64,000 bases of DNA from Ureibacillus acetophenoni (GTDB taxonomy: Bacteria; Bacillota; Bacilli; Bacillales_A; Planococcaceae). Of this stretch, positions 4,534 to 62,762 are shown in pieces. Numbering within the stretch: position 1 is the first letter of the stretch; each line of letters opens with the position of its first letter. The translations under genes were made by a program, and so were the position numbers. The notes beneath the pieces were generated by a model, which was not told where the DNA came from, ran no database searches, and saw nothing but the letters and a program-made list of their open reading frames with translations. The DNA lies in NCBI RefSeq assembly GCF_900220965.1, contig NZ_OBQC01000018.1, forward strand, positions 1 to 64,000, in the 5' to 3' direction.

Positions 4534-6438
4534 TTATTGAGCTTCGTAATAATACATGTCAGCAATTAAATAGTAACCAAATTCGTCGATGATTACGTAG
4601 TACTCTGCTGTTTCTGCGTAAGTAACATAATCACCATTTGCATCATATAAATCATACTCTTCATAAGTAGTGACTACAGCATATTCTTCTTCTTCAAAAA
4701 TATCGATTCCTGTAATTTCAGTATACCAATAATCGAAAGTATAGTTGGAGCCATAGTAGTCTTCAATTTGTCTTTCAATTTCAAGATAAGCATTACTGTC
4801 AGGTGAAATCATGTCTTGCACCCAGTAGAAATCTCCGTCATTTATAGCCCATTCATAATACTCAAAGTAGTATGTGATAAAATTCGTTAACGTTTCTTCA
4901 TCGAAATAGTAACCGTACGAATCTAAGTAATCATCAAAATCTACAGATTCGTCGGTTCCAGTACCATAATATTGTTCGTACCAATCCCAGAAATCTGAAT
5001 AATCTTCACCAAGATCACTTATATCCGTATCGTAACCTGCGTAGACATCTACTGCAACAATATCTGATGCTGACATTGGATTTTTAATCCAATCGTCAAA
5101 ATAATCTTTAACAGTATAAACTGGAATAGCAAAAGCGAAAGATTGATAATTTAAGTACACTATCGAATTAATCCCAATGACATTCCCAGTTGTTGCATCA
5201 AATAATGGCCCACCACTACTACCTTGGTCAATTTGAGCATCAATCTGATATAGTTCATCATAAACGAAATTATAACCATCAATGGACATTTCTCTATCTG
5301 TACCAGTTAAATATCCTATTGAAGCTGAGTTCTCGAAACCTTGAGGGCTACCAATTGCAATAACTTCTATTCCAATATCGGAAATCTTATTTTCAATTGG
5401 AAGTGGTTCTGTTTTTGCGTATTCTTCACTTTGAATAAGGGCGATATCTAACGTATCAGAAATACCAATCACTTTTCCCGGTGATTCTTGACCAGCACTA
5501 TTTCTAACAAGAACATCTGAGAAACCAGCAACAACGTGGGCATTTGTTACGATATATCCACCTTTTGCATAAAGGAAGCCAGAACCATGGCCATCTTGAG
5601 TTATAATTGTAAATACTTTTGGTAAAGATTCTTTAATAATTTGAGTTTTTTCTTTTTCTTCAACTACTTCTTTTTCTTTTTCTTCTTTGGTGTCTTTTCC
5701 ATTTATATCATCTTTTTCGTCTTTATCTTCGTTGTTAATATCTTTAACGATTTGTTCTACTTTATTATCGTCGTTAGGTTTTGCATTATTTTGACCATTA
5801 AAGTAAGTAAACAATCCATAACTAACAGCTAAAATCACAATAAGTAGTGCAGCTACGCCTGAGATAAGCCAAACTTTCTTATTCTTTTTTGGTGGCTGTG
5901 GATTAGATCTTTGCGGACTATTTGGTTGAAACGGACCGCTATTTGGTTGTTGATACTGATTCCCTGCTTGTTGGAATTGAGGTCCACCGGGCTGTTGAAA
6001 CTGGTTCCCTTGTTGTTGGAATTGAGGTCCACCGGGCTGTTGAAACTGGTTCCCTTGTTGTTGGAATTGTGGTCCATTAGGCTGTTGAAACCCTGGTTGT
6101 TGAAATTGCCCAGGTTGACCGTGTTGATTAGGTTGTGAGCCAGTATGTTGGTTAAATTGATCATTATTTGGTTGATGGAATTGTCCTTCAGAAGGTCTTT
6201 TGAACTGCTCGTTTCCTTGTTGTGGATAAGTACCTCTTTTTGGTTGTTGAAAGTTTTGATGATCTTGTTCAAAGTGAGAAGCATTTGGTTCTTCATAATA
6301 AGGATAAGATTGTTCGTCGTGTGACTGTATAGGTTCGCCACTTTGTTGGTTTCCCATTTGATTATTTAATGAGTGTCCACAATTTCCACAAAACTTAGCA
6401 TTTGAATCGTTACTTCCACCGCAATTTGGACAAAACAT
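4534..6438 (-). CDS. membrane-anchored trypsin-like (HtrA/DegP-type) serine protease with N-terminal zinc ribbon
   Basis: A 634-residue protein in clear blocks: a zinc ribbon with CxxC pairs (C3, C6, C17, C20); a Gln/Asn/Pro-rich low-complexity region (about 25-180) with 15-residue repeats; one membrane segment (about 190-212); a Lys/Glu/Asp-rich stretch (about 225-270); a trypsin-like domain with His301 in TNAHVV, Asp331 in DTLDIAL and Ser408 in QGSSGGP; and an acidic Tyr/Asp-rich C-terminal domain from about 445. No PDZ domain is seen. The topology predicts a cytosolic ribbon and Q-rich arm with an extracellular protease. The GGAGGTGGGGGA site directly before the ATG is very strong. A role in envelope stress or secreted-protein quality control is inferred only. 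Confidence 0.85.
   Translation of the reverse strand: MFCPNCGGSNDSNAKFCGNCGHSLNNQMGNQQSGEPIQSHDEQSYPYYEEPNASHFEQDHQNFQQPKRGTYPQQGNEQFKRPSEGQFHQPNNDQFNQHTGSQPNQHGQPGQFQQPGFQQPNGPQFQQQGNQFQQPGGPQFQQQGNQFQQPGGPQFQQAGNQYQQPNSGPFQPNSPQRSNPQPPKKNKKVWLISGVAALLIVILAVSYGLFTYFNGQNNAKPNDDNKVEQIVKDINNEDKDEKDDINGKDTKEEKEKEVVEEKEKTQIIKESLPKVFTIITQDGHGSGFLYAKGGYIVTNAHVVAGFSDVLVRNSAGQESPGKVIGISDTLDIALIQSEEYAKTEPLPIENKISDIGIEVIAIGSPQGFENSASIGYLTGTDREMSIDGYNFVYDELYQIDAQIDQGSSGGPLFDATTGNVIGINSIVYLNYQSFAFAIPVYTVKDYFDDWIKNPMSASDIVAVDVYAGYDTDISDLGEDYSDFWDWYEQYYGTGTDESVDFDDYLDSYGYYFDEETLTNFITYYFEYYEWAINDGDFYWVQDMISPDSNAYLEIERQIEDYYGSNYTFDYWYTEITGIDIFEEEEYAVVTTYEEYDLYDANGDYVTYAETAEYYVIIDEFGYYLIADMYYYEAQ
5936..6115 (-). 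repeat. 45-bp tandem repeat inside the protease gene
   Basis: Two near-identical 45-bp units (5981-6025, 6026-6070) are flanked by decayed copies on both sides. They encode the 15-residue repeat beginning PGGPQFQQQGNQFQQ in the low-complexity arm. Copy number is likely to vary between strains. Confidence 0.85.
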
Positions 6439-36464: not shown

Positions 36465-36723
36465 TGGCAAATAAACTGATATTTTGGCCAATAAGTCTTT
36501 GTTGGTGGCGATTAAATGCTTAGTGGATACTATAACGCTAGTAAGTGGCGAATATCTTTGTAGTTTCGACCAATAACATGTGCAAAAATGGCGGATAAGT
36601 CTACCTAATTGGCGAATAAAAGTTGCAATGAACTCATGAACTCTAACAGGTGGCGAATAACCTTTAAGTTCTGGAGAATATTAACTACGGAATGGCGAAT
36701 AAGTTAATTAAATTGGCGATTAA
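36465..36723 (+). repeat. 21-bp-period decamer array A (core TGGCGAATAA)
   Basis: Copies of TGGCGAATAA or close variants start at 36465, 36485, 36506, 36546, 36567, 36589, 36610, 36651, 36672, 36693 and 36714, with decayed positions near 36524 and 36631. Steps are mostly 20-22 bp, and missing units leave about 40. The intervening bases are unrelated. Three copies are exact and most others have one mismatch. All copies point the same way. The array fills the space between the terminator at 36403 and the MFS gene's upstream region. Confidence 0.85.
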
Positions 36724-45466: not shown

Positions 45467-45539
45467 TGTCCGATAAATCCAAAATAGTGTCCGATATTCC
45501 AAACAAAGTGTCCAATAAACTCTGAAAACTGTCCGATAA
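45467..45539 (+). repeat. 21-bp-period decamer array C (core TGTCCGATAA)
   Basis: Four copies start at 45467, 45488, 45509 and 45530, exactly 21 bp apart: TGTCCGATAA, TGTCCGATAT, TGTCCAATAA, TGTCCGATAA. Filler sequences differ. The core shares its TG-x-C frame and ATAA end with arrays A and B but has a different centre. It lies between the divergent polyamine and GntR operons. Confidence 0.85.
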
Positions 45540-51111: not shown

Positions 51112-51279
51112 GCTTTTTCACGTCCTTCATTTGAACTTCTTCTACTTTATATCGGAAATATAGACTAAAGCAAGTGAAGAAAATTCTCCAAATATTATTA
51201 AAAGTATAATATTACTCAAGTATTTATACTCGCATTTACTTCGATTTCGTGATATTGTAATAGCAATCGAATATTATTG

Positions 51280-51403
51280 TCCTTCGGGGTCGGGTGAAAT
51301 TCCCAATCGACGGTGATGAAGCAATTCTAAGCCCGTGAGCTCTATTCGAGCAGGATTTGGTGCGAATCCAAAGCCGACAGTTAAAGTCTGGATGGGAGAA
51401 GGA
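51280..51403 (+). promoter_or_regulatory. FMN riboswitch (RFN element)
   Basis: All conserved blocks of the RFN aptamer are present in order: CCTTCGGGGTCGGGTGAAAT at 51281, a CGACGGTGAT block, AAGCCCGTGAGC, GCAGGATTTGGTG, CCAAAGCCGACAG, and the closing GGATGGGAGAAGG at 51390-51402, which pairs back to the start. It controls the ribE-ribB-ribH operon by FMN-dependent attenuation through the hairpin at 51478. Confidence 0.97.
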
Positions 51404-51477
51404 TGTAAATGTAAAAAGCTATTAATCATTTATTAATGGTTTAATTTCTTATTGCATTTTAGCATGTAACGGACACT

Positions 51478-58139: not shown

Positions 58140-58210
58140 TTAATTTGAGAATTTGTCGAATAATCTCTATCCAATCAGCCCACAATAGTTTATGTGGAGG
58201 TGAAATAGAG

Positions 58211-58384
58211 ATGGCAAAAAACAATAACAACCGTAACAACAATAACAACAATAATAACAACAACAACAACAATGCTGAGTTCGCAGCAGAGCAAGATTTT
58301 GCTCAACAAAACAACAAACAAAAACAACAAAATAACCAACGCAACAACAACCGCAACAACAACAATAACAACAATAACCGATAA
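58211..58384 (+). CDS. Asn-rich gamma-type small acid-soluble spore protein-like
   Basis: A 57-residue protein, nearly all Asn, Gln, Arg and Lys, with one unique segment AEFAAEQDFAQQ. EFAAEQ resembles the EFASET protease site of gamma-SASPs, and B. subtilis sspE occupies the matching position beyond mutY. The poly-Asn tracts are coded by runs of AAC/AAT, which behave as a trinucleotide repeat and probably vary in length. GGAGGTGAAA lies upstream of ATG 58211. A divergent SASP is the best guess. Confidence 0.65.
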   Translation: MAKNNNNRNNNNNNNNNNNNNAEFAAEQDFAQQNNKQKQQNNQRNNNRNNNNNNNNR

Positions 58385-59320: not shown

Positions 59321-59398
59321 CTAAGGTTATGAATAGTTATGGATTCATGGAGGCAAAACATAACTTGCAGCACGATGAAAGGAAGTGAATTCAAAACC

Positions 59399-61144
59399 TT
59401 GGGTAGTATGCGGCGTTATATGAGGTTTGTTAAACCTTACAAATGGGAAATTTTTGTAACATTATTAATTGGAATTTTAAAATTTGCAATACCATTATTT
59501 ATTCCGTTTCTTACAAAGATCGTCATTGACGATATTATTTTAGAAGAATCTTTATCCTCAGGTGAAAAAATCACACAGTTAGTTTATTGGCTTGGTGGAA
59601 CGGTCATTTTATTCTTCATCATTCGTCCCCCTATTGAATATTACCGTCAATATTTCGCCCAACATGTAGGAAATAAAGTGTTGTTCGATATTCGTAAAGA
59701 ACTATTTGGTCATCTTCAAAAGTTAAGTTTAAAGTATTATGCGAATACGCGAGCAGGGGAAGTTATTTCCCGAGTAATAAATGATGTCGAACAAACGAAG
59801 AACTTCATTATGATTGGATTAATGAACTTGTGGCTCGATATGGCGACAATTCTAATCGTCATCGGCATTATGCTTTCAATGGACGTTGGTTTAACGCTTG
59901 TTGCAATTATTTCATTACCTCTTTTTGCAATCAGTGTTAAGTATTTTTTCGGAAAGCTACGAGACTTAACAAGAAAACGATCTCAAGCTTTAGCTGGAGT
60001 TCAAAGTTATTTACATGAACGGGTAAGTGGTATAAGCATTATTAAAAGCTTTGCCCTTGAAAAACATGAACAACAAATTTTTGATAAGGAAAACGGTGAA
60101 TTTTTAGACCGTTCCCTTGATCATACCGTTTGGAATGCAAAATCCTTTGCTGTGGTCAATACGATTACTGATATTGCGCCACTTTTAGTTATTGGTTGGG
60201 CAGGTTATGAAGTAATTAATGGGAATTTAACTGTAGGAACAGTGGCTGCTTTTATGGGATATATTGAACGTTTATACGCACCATTACGAAGATTAATGAA
60301 CTCTTCTACGACTTTAACGCAGTCCATAGCATCTATGGATCGTATGTTTGAGTTAATGGATGAAAAATATGATGTCACTGACAAAACAGATGCTAGAAAT
60401 TTGCCTGCTATTAAGGGACAAGTGGACTTTGAAAAAGTGACTTTTAAATATGATGAGGATGGGCAAACCATATTAAATCATATAGATTTTCAAATTAAAC
60501 CTGGAGAAACAGCTGCTTTTGTTGGAATGAGTGGTGGAGGAAAATCCACGATAGTTAGCTTAATTCCACGATTTTATGATGTGACAAGCGGAGCAGTTAA
60601 AATTGATGGGGTGAATGTAGCAGATATTACCCAGCGTTCGTTACGTTCTCAAATTGGGATCGTTTTACAGGACAATATTTTGTTCAGCGACTCAGTAAAG
60701 CAAAATATCCTAATGGGTAGACCTGATGCGACAGATGAAGAGGTCATTGAGGCTGCAAAGGCGGCAAATGCACATGATTTCATCATGTCATTACCTGATG
60801 GTTATGATACTAAAGTGGGAGAGCGCGGTGTGAAGCTATCTGGCGGACAAAAACAACGTGTGGCAATTGCACGAGTGTTCCTGAAAAATCCACCAATCTT
60901 AGTTTTAGACGAGGCGACTTCAGCATTAGATTTAGAAAGTGAAGCTTTAATTCAAGAGTCTTTAGAACAACTAGCTCACAATCGTACAACAATTATGATT
61001 GCCCACCGTCTATCTACAATTACTCATGCAGATAAAATTTTTGTAATCGATCATGGTGAGTTAGTGGAACAAGGTACACATGATGAATTAATGGAAAAGC
61101 AAGGTATTTATTACGACCTGTTCCAAATACAGAAGTTAGATTAA
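59399..61144 (+). CDS. ygaD: ABC exporter, fused permease/ATPase (YgaD-like)
   Basis: A 581-residue half-transporter of the MsbA/BmrA type: six membrane helices (about 20-300) followed by an ATPase with Walker [11 protein letters not shown]-loop IVLQDNILF, signature [12 protein letters not shown], Walker [13 protein letters not shown] and switch IAHRLST. It works as a dimer exporting lipids or drugs. The TTG at 59399 is preferred because AAAGGAAGTG lies about 10 bases upstream and the length then equals B. subtilis YgaD; ATG 59408 is possible. Confidence 0.9.
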
Positions 61145-61156
61145 TAAGTAAAATGA

Positions 61157-61193
61157 AATGCTCAATTCCCGTCAGTGGAATTGGGCATTTTTT
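61157..61193 (+). terminator. intrinsic terminator after ygaD
   Basis: A 13-bp stem (61157-61169 with 61177-61189, one G-T pair), then a T-run. It lies immediately left of array B. Confidence 0.88.
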
Positions 61194-61243
61194 AATTACT
61201 TGATTTTAGGAAAAAGGGCTAGATTCTAATCAGTTTTTAATAT

Positions 61244-61521
61244 TGGCGAATAACATGCTAGTTTTGGCGAATAAGCATATTAAAATGGCGAATAACTCAT
61301 CAGAAATGGCGAATAACGCCCCATGAAAATCCCTAGTTCTTAATATTGGCGAATAACATGCTCGAAATGGCGAATAAACATATTAAACTGGCGAATACCT
61401 CATCAGATTTGGCGAATAATGTTCCATGAAAAGCTCTAGTTATAATATTGGCGAATACCTTGCTAGAATTGGCGAATAAACATATTAAATTGGCGAATAA
61501 TTCTTCAGATTTGGCGAATAT
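61244..61521 (+). repeat. 21-bp-period decamer array B (core TGGCGAATAA, three super-repeats)
   Basis: Twelve copies start at 61244, 61265, 61286, 61307 | 61347, 61368, 61389, 61410 | 61449, 61470, 61491, 61512. Within each group of four the step is exactly 21 bp; groups are separated by 39-40 bp, giving super-repeats of 103 and 102 bp. TGGCGAATA is invariant in all twelve, and nine are TGGCGAATAA. Filler is partly shared between super-repeats (CATATTAAA, CATCAGA). All copies have one orientation, and the array lies between two convergent terminators. Confidence 0.92.
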
Positions 61522-61583
61522 CATTATAAAATGAAGTTGGATCAGGAAGTTTTCCAAATTATATTGATTTACACCAATAAAAG

Positions 61584-61627
61584 TTAAAAAGGGTAAAGCT
61601 TTGCACTTATATTGCAAGCTTTACCCT
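61584..61627 (-). terminator. intrinsic terminator after ygaE
   Basis: A long stem, AGGGTAAAGCTTTGCA (61590-61605) with 61613-61627 (one-base difference), T-rich on the minus-strand exit. It closes the right side of array B. Confidence 0.88.
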
Positions 61628-61667: not shown

Positions 61668-62762
61668 CTAGTAGAACTGTTCTTCCAAATCTTCGTTTGA
61701 TTCCTTACTATGATAGCTTCGATAAGAGACTATTAATGTATCAAGGTGTTCCAAGTTTTCCTCGTAGTCTAAAATCCGTGAGAATGTATAAAATAAATGA
61801 TAGCTTGAAAAATCCTCTTCACCTTCACGCATACTATCATCAAGGACAATTTGTTCGATTATATTTTTCATAACAGCAGATCGATCTAAATGTTCTTCAC
61901 TTACTGTCCACTTTGAATGTTCAGGCTTTAGTTTCCCTGTAAACTTTAACAATAATTGCTCATGGTAGGTAAGTAAGAAATCTAATCGTTCTAAAAACAT
62001 ACTACGAAAAGAATCAGGCAAGTTCCCAATTGCATTTTCATGTTTGTAAACCCTTGATAGTAATTCCATACTCTTCTGTGTTGTGATCATCATTTGACGA
62101 TATACTACAAGCTTTCTTGCATGGACAAATCGTTTACTTTTCGTATAATTACGTTCTTCCTTGAAAAATTCATATATCTTTTCCAAATCAGTATATCGAC
62201 TATGAATTTTACTAATAGCTGTTTTTGTTGAATTATGTTCCGATGCATTTCTAACAGCCAGACGAGTCCAGCGAATAATATCATCCTGCAATGTGTGAAT
62301 CGCTTTAAACAATTTCACTTCATATCGTGGTGGTAAGAAAATCATATTAACGATAAATGCAGCGAGTACACCAACCATCACAGTTCCAAAACGAATCAAA
62401 CTAAATCCTAAAAAGTCGTCTCCTTCATAGACCATAATGGCCACAACTGTAACAAGTGCTAACGATAAAGAGCTATCTAGCTTCATTTTTAGCATAATTC
62501 CAATGACAATTATGGCAGCGATCCCAATCGCGACAATGTGATGACCGAATAGTAAACCAAATAATACGGCAATTGCAGCACCGATAATATTCCCTTGTAT
62601 TTGTTCTAGGATGGATAAATAGGAACGATAAATCGATGGCTGAATCGCAAATATTGCAGCAATCCCTGCAAAAACGGGTGATGGTAAATTTAATAGTTCA
62701 GCTAAAAATAGTGAAAATACAATGGCAACTCCCGTTTTTAAAACGCGGGCACCTACTTGCAT
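61668..62762 (-). CDS. ygaE: aromatic acid exporter family protein (YgaE-like)
   Basis: A 364-residue protein with about five to six membrane helices in the first 150 residues (FUSC/ArAE-type fold: GARVLKTGVAIVFSLFLAE, ALVTVVAIMVYEGDDFL, GVLAAFIVNMIFLPPRYE) and a long helical cytoplasmic domain. It resembles B. subtilis YgaE in position and layout. An efflux role for aromatic acids is a family prediction only. Confidence 0.85.
   Translation of the reverse strand: MQVGARVLKTGVAIVFSLFLAELLNLPSPVFAGIAAIFAIQPSIYRSYLSILEQIQGNIIGAAIAVLFGLLFGHHIVAIGIAAIIVIGIMLKMKLDSSLSLALVTVVAIMVYEGDDFLGFSLIRFGTVMVGVLAAFIVNMIFLPPRYEVKLFKAIHTLQDDIIRWTRLAVRNASEHNSTKTAISKIHSRYTDLEKIYEFFKEERNYTKSKRFVHARKLVVYRQMMITTQKSMELLSRVYKHENAIGNLPDSFRSMFLERLDFLLTYHEQLLLKFTGKLKPEHSKWTVSEEHLDRSAVMKNIIEQIVLDDSMREGEEDFSSYHLFYTFSRILDYEENLEHLDTLIVSYRSYHSKESNEDLEEQFY

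Follow-up and report, generated by a model that had tools for sequence, protein, structure and literature searches.

Array B is one of at least 12 arrays of a dispersed, noncoding satellite built on a 103-bp unit in the Ureibacillus acetophenoni genome (G000), and its cores may well be docking sites for a DNA-binding protein lined up along the DNA, with four subunits per unit. The array was found in a stretch of 64,000 nucleotides, here called the window. A constant word at a constant spacing stands beside free fillers, which argues for a row of protein sites rather than a structural RNA or a peptide. A putative cooperative protein-binding site, as proposed in the preliminary description, is still the best reading.

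Array B and its surroundings in the window

The 9-bp core TGGCGAATA is exact in 12 of 12 copies of array B, arranged in three four-core blocks with starts at 61244, 61265, 61286, 61307, 61347, 61368, 61389, 61410, 61449, 61470, 61491 and 61512; the chance expectation of this word over the whole 64 kb window is 0.41. All nine intervals within blocks are 21 bp, exactly as first described, those between blocks are 40 and 39 bp, and the super-repeats measure 103 and 102 bp. Tandem Repeats Finder reported positions 61235-61520, with a period of 103, 2.8 copies and 86% matches. An invariant decamer with an 11-bp filler had been proposed, but 9 of the 12 copies have the 10-mer TGGCGAATAA (the base after the core is A in 9/12), which leaves an invariant unit of 9 bp and a 12-bp filler. 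Similarly, the placement of all cores on one face of B-DNA holds within each block of four, but not along the array, as the 40/39-bp step rotates the following block by ~2-3 bp, or 70-100 degrees (by arithmetic, at 10.5 bp per turn).

Table 1. Coordinates of array B, its parts and neighbours, and the other arrays of the window (R1, model of the repeat unit; G010, a related genome).
Feature	Positions	Strand	Basis or remark
ABC transporter gene (ABC_membrane, ABC_tran), left convergent gene	59339..61144	+	ORF list, domains
Terminator hairpin and T tract after the ABC transporter gene, left of array B	61155..61193	+	Fold z -6.3
AGGAA at the left boundary of the sequence missing in G010	61208..61212	+	Comparison with G010
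Array B, three blocks of exact TGGCGAATA cores (12 in all) with 40- and 39-bp steps between them	61244..61520	+	Core positions, Tandem Repeats Finder
103-bp unit 1, four cores and 40-bp step	61244..61346	+	R1 match 61244-61355, 69 bits
Core-free 31 bp of the 40-bp step, between cores 4 and 5	61316..61346	+	Barely conserved between arrays
102-bp unit 2	61347..61448	+	R1 match 61359-61457, 58.7 bits
Unit 3, four cores only, array end	61449..61520	+	R1 match 61461-61532, 47 bits
AGGAA at the right boundary of the sequence missing in G010	61544..61548	+	One copy in G010
Terminator hairpin and T tract after the exporter gene, right of array B	61585..61627	-	Fold z -4.5
Aromatic acid exporter family gene (ArAE_1, FUSC), right convergent gene	61668..62762	-	ORF list, domains
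Array A, degenerate family member, 10 cores at <=1 mismatch	36465..36722	+	Steps 20,21,40,43,21,41,21,21,21; R1 matches
Four TGTCC(G/A)ATA words, 21-bp steps (45467, 45488, 45509, 45530)	45467..45538	+	Starts counted by hand; period 21

The array had been placed between the terminators of two convergent operons, where promoter or operator function was considered unlikely. Hairpins with T tracts were found on both sides, behind the two convergent genes (Table 1); a consensus terminator scan found 0 and missed these two. Promoter-like sites between 60900 and 61900 number 4, against a shuffle mean of 4.8, which together with the position between terminators agrees with that view. At the gathering score, Rfam gave no match for array B in the window, only an FMN riboswitch (51276-51407) and a group II intron (16-92). 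An Asn/Gln-rich open frame at 58208-58384 resembles, by eye, a gamma-type small acid-soluble spore protein.

Two further 21-bp arrays map to the window. Array A is located upstream of a major facilitator gene and is the sole divergent-gap case among the G000 arrays scored. The array at 45467-45538 has a different core and occupies a gap between open frames.

Palindromes in the array are limited to AT-rich arms of 8-9 nt, the repeats being direct only. A function in RNA, with arrays read through from neighbouring genes to give repeated RNAs or sponges, is highly improbable. The 52-nt repeats of B. coagulans are reported as transcribed in the main text of PMC8161180 and in PMC8625621, but array B folds worse than its shuffles on both strands (z +1.75 and +2.40), as do five of six unit stretches of other arrays (z 0.88 to 1.85; one at -0.31), a terminator stands before array B on either side, and the orientation of arrays relative to neighbouring genes is mixed. 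The chance that the arrays encode heptad repeats, 21 bp being 7 codons, is practically negligible: a minus-strand open frame of 94 codons (61333-61617) covers part of array B, but each unit shifts the reading frame because 103 is not a multiple of 3, and the longest stop-free run in nine arrays of 257-1345 bp is 116 codons.

The array family in this genome and in relatives

Exact cores number 162 in the genome (97 on the plus and 65 on the minus strand), compared with 6 (4 and 2) for a reversed control, so array B is not the sole occurrence of the core. The 21-bp spacing is enriched: 71 of the 73 core pairs with 30 or fewer bases between them are 21 bp apart, and the other two are at 17 and 39 bp. 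Twelve clusters of at least four cores (<=1 mismatch) were found, two of them, A and B, in the window. In every cluster, three 21-bp steps adjoin a longer one of 40-42 bp or, in a single case, of 61 bp, the latter corresponding to 40+21 with one core lost. Their 188 core-to-core intervals comprise 136 of 21 bp, 32 of 40, 6 of 61 and 14 others. Counting from any block of four, with 98-108 bp allowed, the distance to the next core is 103 bp for 33 of 36 blocks, 104 for two and 102 for one. Recent tandem amplification had been suggested for array B; amplification within the array is apparent, but the 103-bp layout is present in all 12 clusters and in seven other species and is thus not only local.

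Two further G000 arrays, which contain no pair of exact cores, were found with R1, a sequence-only model of the unit made from 14 units (12 GAATA-type and 2 TAATA-type); one of them has a TGGCTAATA-like core. In array C25a a short step of 20 bp precedes a long one of 41 bp, which keeps the sum; this was seen twice, and the two occurrences are probably copies of one event. A further place, on contig C6, probably belongs to the C28 array as its broken end, since both end at contig ends and have 60 bp in common at 98%. Arrays were also observed at or near contig ends of drafts in L069, L077, L181, L183, L184, L185, L186, L190 and L221; given these locations, arrays probably break assemblies and are under-counted. 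A second repeat (CTACCTTATCAGGATCA-like) was noticed by eye on both sides of the C11 array (L070 ~4898-4977 and 5333-5400).

Arrays were compared through a consensus 103-bp unit for each, those of A and C35 being drawn from one unit each. Mean identity between arrays was 0.93 for the core, 0.42 for the filler and 0.32 for the core-free interval (66 pairs, 12 arrays), with units cut in an assumed 103-bp frame and the last ones running into the flanks. Both restrictions are lifted by the 36-block count above and by the analysis of complete units, which gave 0.94, 0.44 and 0.35 (45 pairs, 10 arrays); composition alone would give ~0.29. A further conserved motif within the 40-bp step was ruled out, as its identity of 0.32-0.35 compares with this chance value. 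The fillers of C11, C19a and C25a are 81-86% alike, while those of other array pairs are near chance, with the steps still kept. The flanks of these three loci showed no homology when compared with the arrays masked, and the similar fillers within unrelated flanks therefore indicate that arrays get copied to new sites. Array loci had before been compared at the nucleotide level with three matches retained for each pair, and the masked repeat covered the three loci.

At E 0.001 or better, R1 matches at least 18 of the genus's 25 genomes (G000 among them); among the matches listed, the other 7 have none, so that the arrays seem dispensable. The scan beyond the genus covered the 261 genomes of the family, at E 0.0001, and matched at least 39: at least 17 of 25 in the own genus, at least 9 of 16 in the genus that includes Solibacillus merdavium (to which G177 is linked by a 400-nt stretch in common with the named record L035) and at least 13 scattered. 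NCBI places Solibacillus in Caryophanaceae.

Autocorrelation, which is independent of the core word, gave 103 (once 206) as the best lag in 13 of 18 array regions from seven other species, 102 or 104 in three and another lag in two. The 21,21,21,40 layout is found in eight species, G000, G010, G014, G017, G019, G020, G021 (represented by 7 array regions) and G022. For layout and gene gaps, cores were located as a TGRCKDWTW-like word, and for core types as a TGRCNNNTW-like word, each required to have a partner 20-22 or 39-41 bp away. Other layouts also occur: G001 has mostly plain 21-bp runs together with a 21,21,60 form, the one Solibacillus array examined consists of plain 21-bp runs, and G022 also contains runs with 19, 30 and 72-bp steps. 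More distant members of the family, G159 and G160, contain 21-bp arrays of another word, ATAATCGGTCGGT.

Arrays of ATAATCGGTCGGT and ATAAGCGGTGATAGA at 21 bp were encountered in L110-L130 (G159, G160 and G207) as matches of the reversed control pattern. The triple core was also seen in Chitinophagales, Treponema and Chloroflexota records, as tandem repeats of the same word in other phyla. Viral contigs with the exact triple-core pattern numbered 0, and array B had no match among plasmids and phages at E 0.001.

The preliminary description noted the convergent setting, which stands as a tendency but not as a rule. The 40 array-bearing gene gaps in the eight species, some of them orthologous, comprise 16 convergent, 21 tandem and 3 divergent gaps, and 259 comparison gaps of at least 60 bp at the same loci comprise 38, 152 and 69 (gaps defined by open frames of >=100 codons). 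Convergent gaps are thus enriched (16/40 vs 38/259, p 0.0005) and divergent ones depleted (3/40 vs 69/259, p 0.009), and arrays lie a median of 107 bp away from the 3' end of a gene. These figures would also suit supercoil-handling sites resembling BIME arrays, located behind terminators or between convergent genes and loading a wrapping protein, gyrase or the like; one wrapped complex would then correspond to the 103-bp unit, and its gate segment to the core-free interval. We consider this unlikely, as it leaves the core variation between and within species unexplained by a conserved enzyme such as gyrase, and the arrays lack palindromes. Arrays are distributed over the chromosome, and in three single-contig genomes 18 of 40 are co-directional with the leading strand (one zero-skew and one unfetched locus left out). 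A polar replication guide of the KOPS or Chi type was rejected, as orientation does not follow replication.

Array sites and core types in related genomes

G010 contains this convergent gene pair without array B, and the stretch that it lacks is bounded by AGGAA on both edges (Table 1). At the same site G016 retains three degenerate cores with exact 21-bp steps. A fresh insertion with a 5-bp target duplication was set aside, since with the G016 relic a loss in G010 via AGGAA is at least as likely. Array B therefore probably predates this species and disappeared from G010, with insertion as the alternative.

This history bears on the possibility that the arrays are a selfish or neutral satellite without host function, in which an ancestral 103-bp unit would spread by slippage, unequal recombination and occasional copying, and survive where it is least harmful. 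Several observations agree with it, namely the patchy occurrence (at least 18 of 25 genus genomes), the absence of array B in G010, the degenerate state of array A, the relic in G016, and the three arrays with 81-86% filler identity whose masked flanks lack homology. We regard it as possible but rather doubtful: neutral decay should hit cores like fillers, yet cores are kept at 0.93 while fillers are near chance, and it should alter lengths, yet 33 of 36 blocks keep 103 bp. Against the docking-site reading, the shared 103-bp frame as such could come from descent alone, some fillers being recognisably related, and a common ancestral unit explains part of it.

Core types differ between genomes. 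The dominant core was GAATA in 12/12 arrays of G000, GATTA in 4/4 of G010, and TAATA in 5/5 of G001 and 3/3 of G014, the uniformity in G000 and G001 being partly a search choice, as their loci were mostly found via the core. G022 has TGATA in 3 arrays and GAATA in 1. Mixtures were found in G020 (GATTA 5, TATTA 2 and GGATA 1 over 8 arrays) and in G017 (five dominant types over 10 arrays: GGATA 4, GGATT 3 and three others), which ruled out one core per genome. With G000 and G001 left out, 33 R1-found arrays of five genomes (L045 equals L185 and was counted once) have the same dominant core in 40 of 106 within-genome pairs compared with 46 of 422 between-genome pairs, an excess reached by 2 of 20000 label shuffles. 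On species specificity, the core types show an enrichment within genomes, with mixtures in G017 and G020.

G000 and G010 have two arrays in common, one with both flanks homologous and the other with one, at ~80-84% identity of the flanking DNA. In these arrays cores are 0.86-0.89 identical, fillers 0.53-0.64 and intervals 0.39-0.45 (consensus of 8 vs 2 units and of 2 vs 2 units). Of the nine core differences, six are one recurrent substitution, A to T at base 7 of the core, which sits in three of the four slots in each array; the fourth slot of both arrays in G000 stays GATTA or GATTT. At another locus, next to a JetC3-like gene, three species have an array whose main core is TGACTATTA, with both flanks homologous. 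Together, these sites indicate that arrays persist in place while their cores change or stay.

The JetC3-like (Wadjet) gene adjoins the orthologous array in G017 and G020 (L203:4405-8301, L173:4401-8300, L191:4337-8200), and the gene at this position in G019 is 99% identical. Elsewhere, G001 has an array (L056:1413-1582) where G000 has none (L076:3428-3450), with homologous flanks.

What may read the arrays, and comparison with known repeats

In the docking-site reading, a trans-acting protein would read the core, and protomers two helical turns apart could touch each other along one face of the DNA. The 40-bp step would close one four-site complex and rotate the next; the groups of four with a phase-breaking step suggest a complex of limited size and not an endless filament. 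The enrichment of core types within a genome suggests that the reader acts in trans and is able to drift. Arrays would grow and shrink by unequal recombination, be copied elsewhere occasionally, and survive best behind terminators. Chromosome condensing or bridging and the insulation of convergent operons are candidate cellular roles. Several observations speak against this reading: the multiple core types in G017 and G020, the TGGCTAATA-type array of G000, the other layouts in G001 and G022, the seven congeners lacking a listed match, and the missing array B in G010.

Going further, we tentatively propose a fixed ruler of 103 bp, or ten turns, on whose four-core blocks a fast-evolving protein would sit; the cores would follow a shift in its specificity genome-wide while layout and positions stay, much as centromere satellites and their proteins co-evolve. 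The Spo0A box is TGNCGAA; it fits TGGCGAA but not the TGGCTAATA arrays, and was discarded as the source of the core.

Plasmid iterons and partition sites are direct repeats about two turns apart, with protomers seated on one face. Unlike plasmid iterons, the present arrays occupy many sites in a chromosome-size genome, and the neighbours of array B are transporters. REP/BIME elements, as described in PMC2817692 and PMC8266576, are likewise dispersed and intergenic, with several sequence families and some regular clusters, and are bound by host proteins. In contrast to them, the arrays here are direct repeats with no palindromic unit, and the fold z of array B is positive. A literature text search by the 9-mer gave, among the matches listed, tick rickettsiae, viruses and primers and nothing on repeats, and a search for intergenic tandem repeats in Planococcaceae found nothing.

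The closest counterparts are the tandem repeats of Bacillus, a class reportedly first described in a J Bacteriol paper of 2020. The preliminary description knew of no repeat family of this form, but noncoding 20-21-nt tandem repeats with a conserved signal were published in 2021 (Subirana and Messeguer; PMC8161180). The main text of that paper covers 176 Bacillus genomes with 4029 tandem repeats. Lengths of 20-21 or 51-53 nt account for 66% of these, and the repeats of these lengths are mostly noncoding and species-specific and contain short conserved signals, such as TCGCGG in the 21-nt repeats of B. weihaiensis. The text counts arrays of at least 4 repeats with at least 60% of the same length within 1 nt, and proposes either small RNAs or a protein that polymerises and thereby stabilises the nucleoid.

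By this length rule array B belongs to the class, with 9 of its 11 intervals at 21 bp, as it does by the 12 clusters in the genome, the noncoding location and the 9-bp core in 12/12 copies. Like the 20-21-nt repeats of that main text, the present arrays have a two-turn length, several arrays per genome, a noncoding setting and a conserved signal beside variable sequence. They differ from them in having cores in fours on a 103-bp unit common to eight species, cores that differ at arrays shared by two species, and positions behind gene 3' ends. The 52-nt repeats described there are similar in their constant length near whole turns and several short signals per unit, and 103 is about 2x52, but a 51-52-bp lag is absent from the eight best lags of all 18 array regions, the periods observed being 21 and 103. 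The 103-bp four-core unit, its conservation across the genus and the core change at shared arrays appear neither in the main text of PMC8161180, supplements aside, nor among the matches listed in the literature searches.

The arrays of U. acetophenoni are therefore a variant of the noncoding 20-21-nt Bacillus repeats, which have been termed enigmatic because their length is conserved and their sequence is not. Here the length, the groups of four and the 103-bp unit are kept while fillers are nearly unrelated, and cores have changed at arrays common to two species, which makes the question of what reads the arrays testable: the layout predicts the size and geometry of a complex, and species with different cores provide specificity controls.
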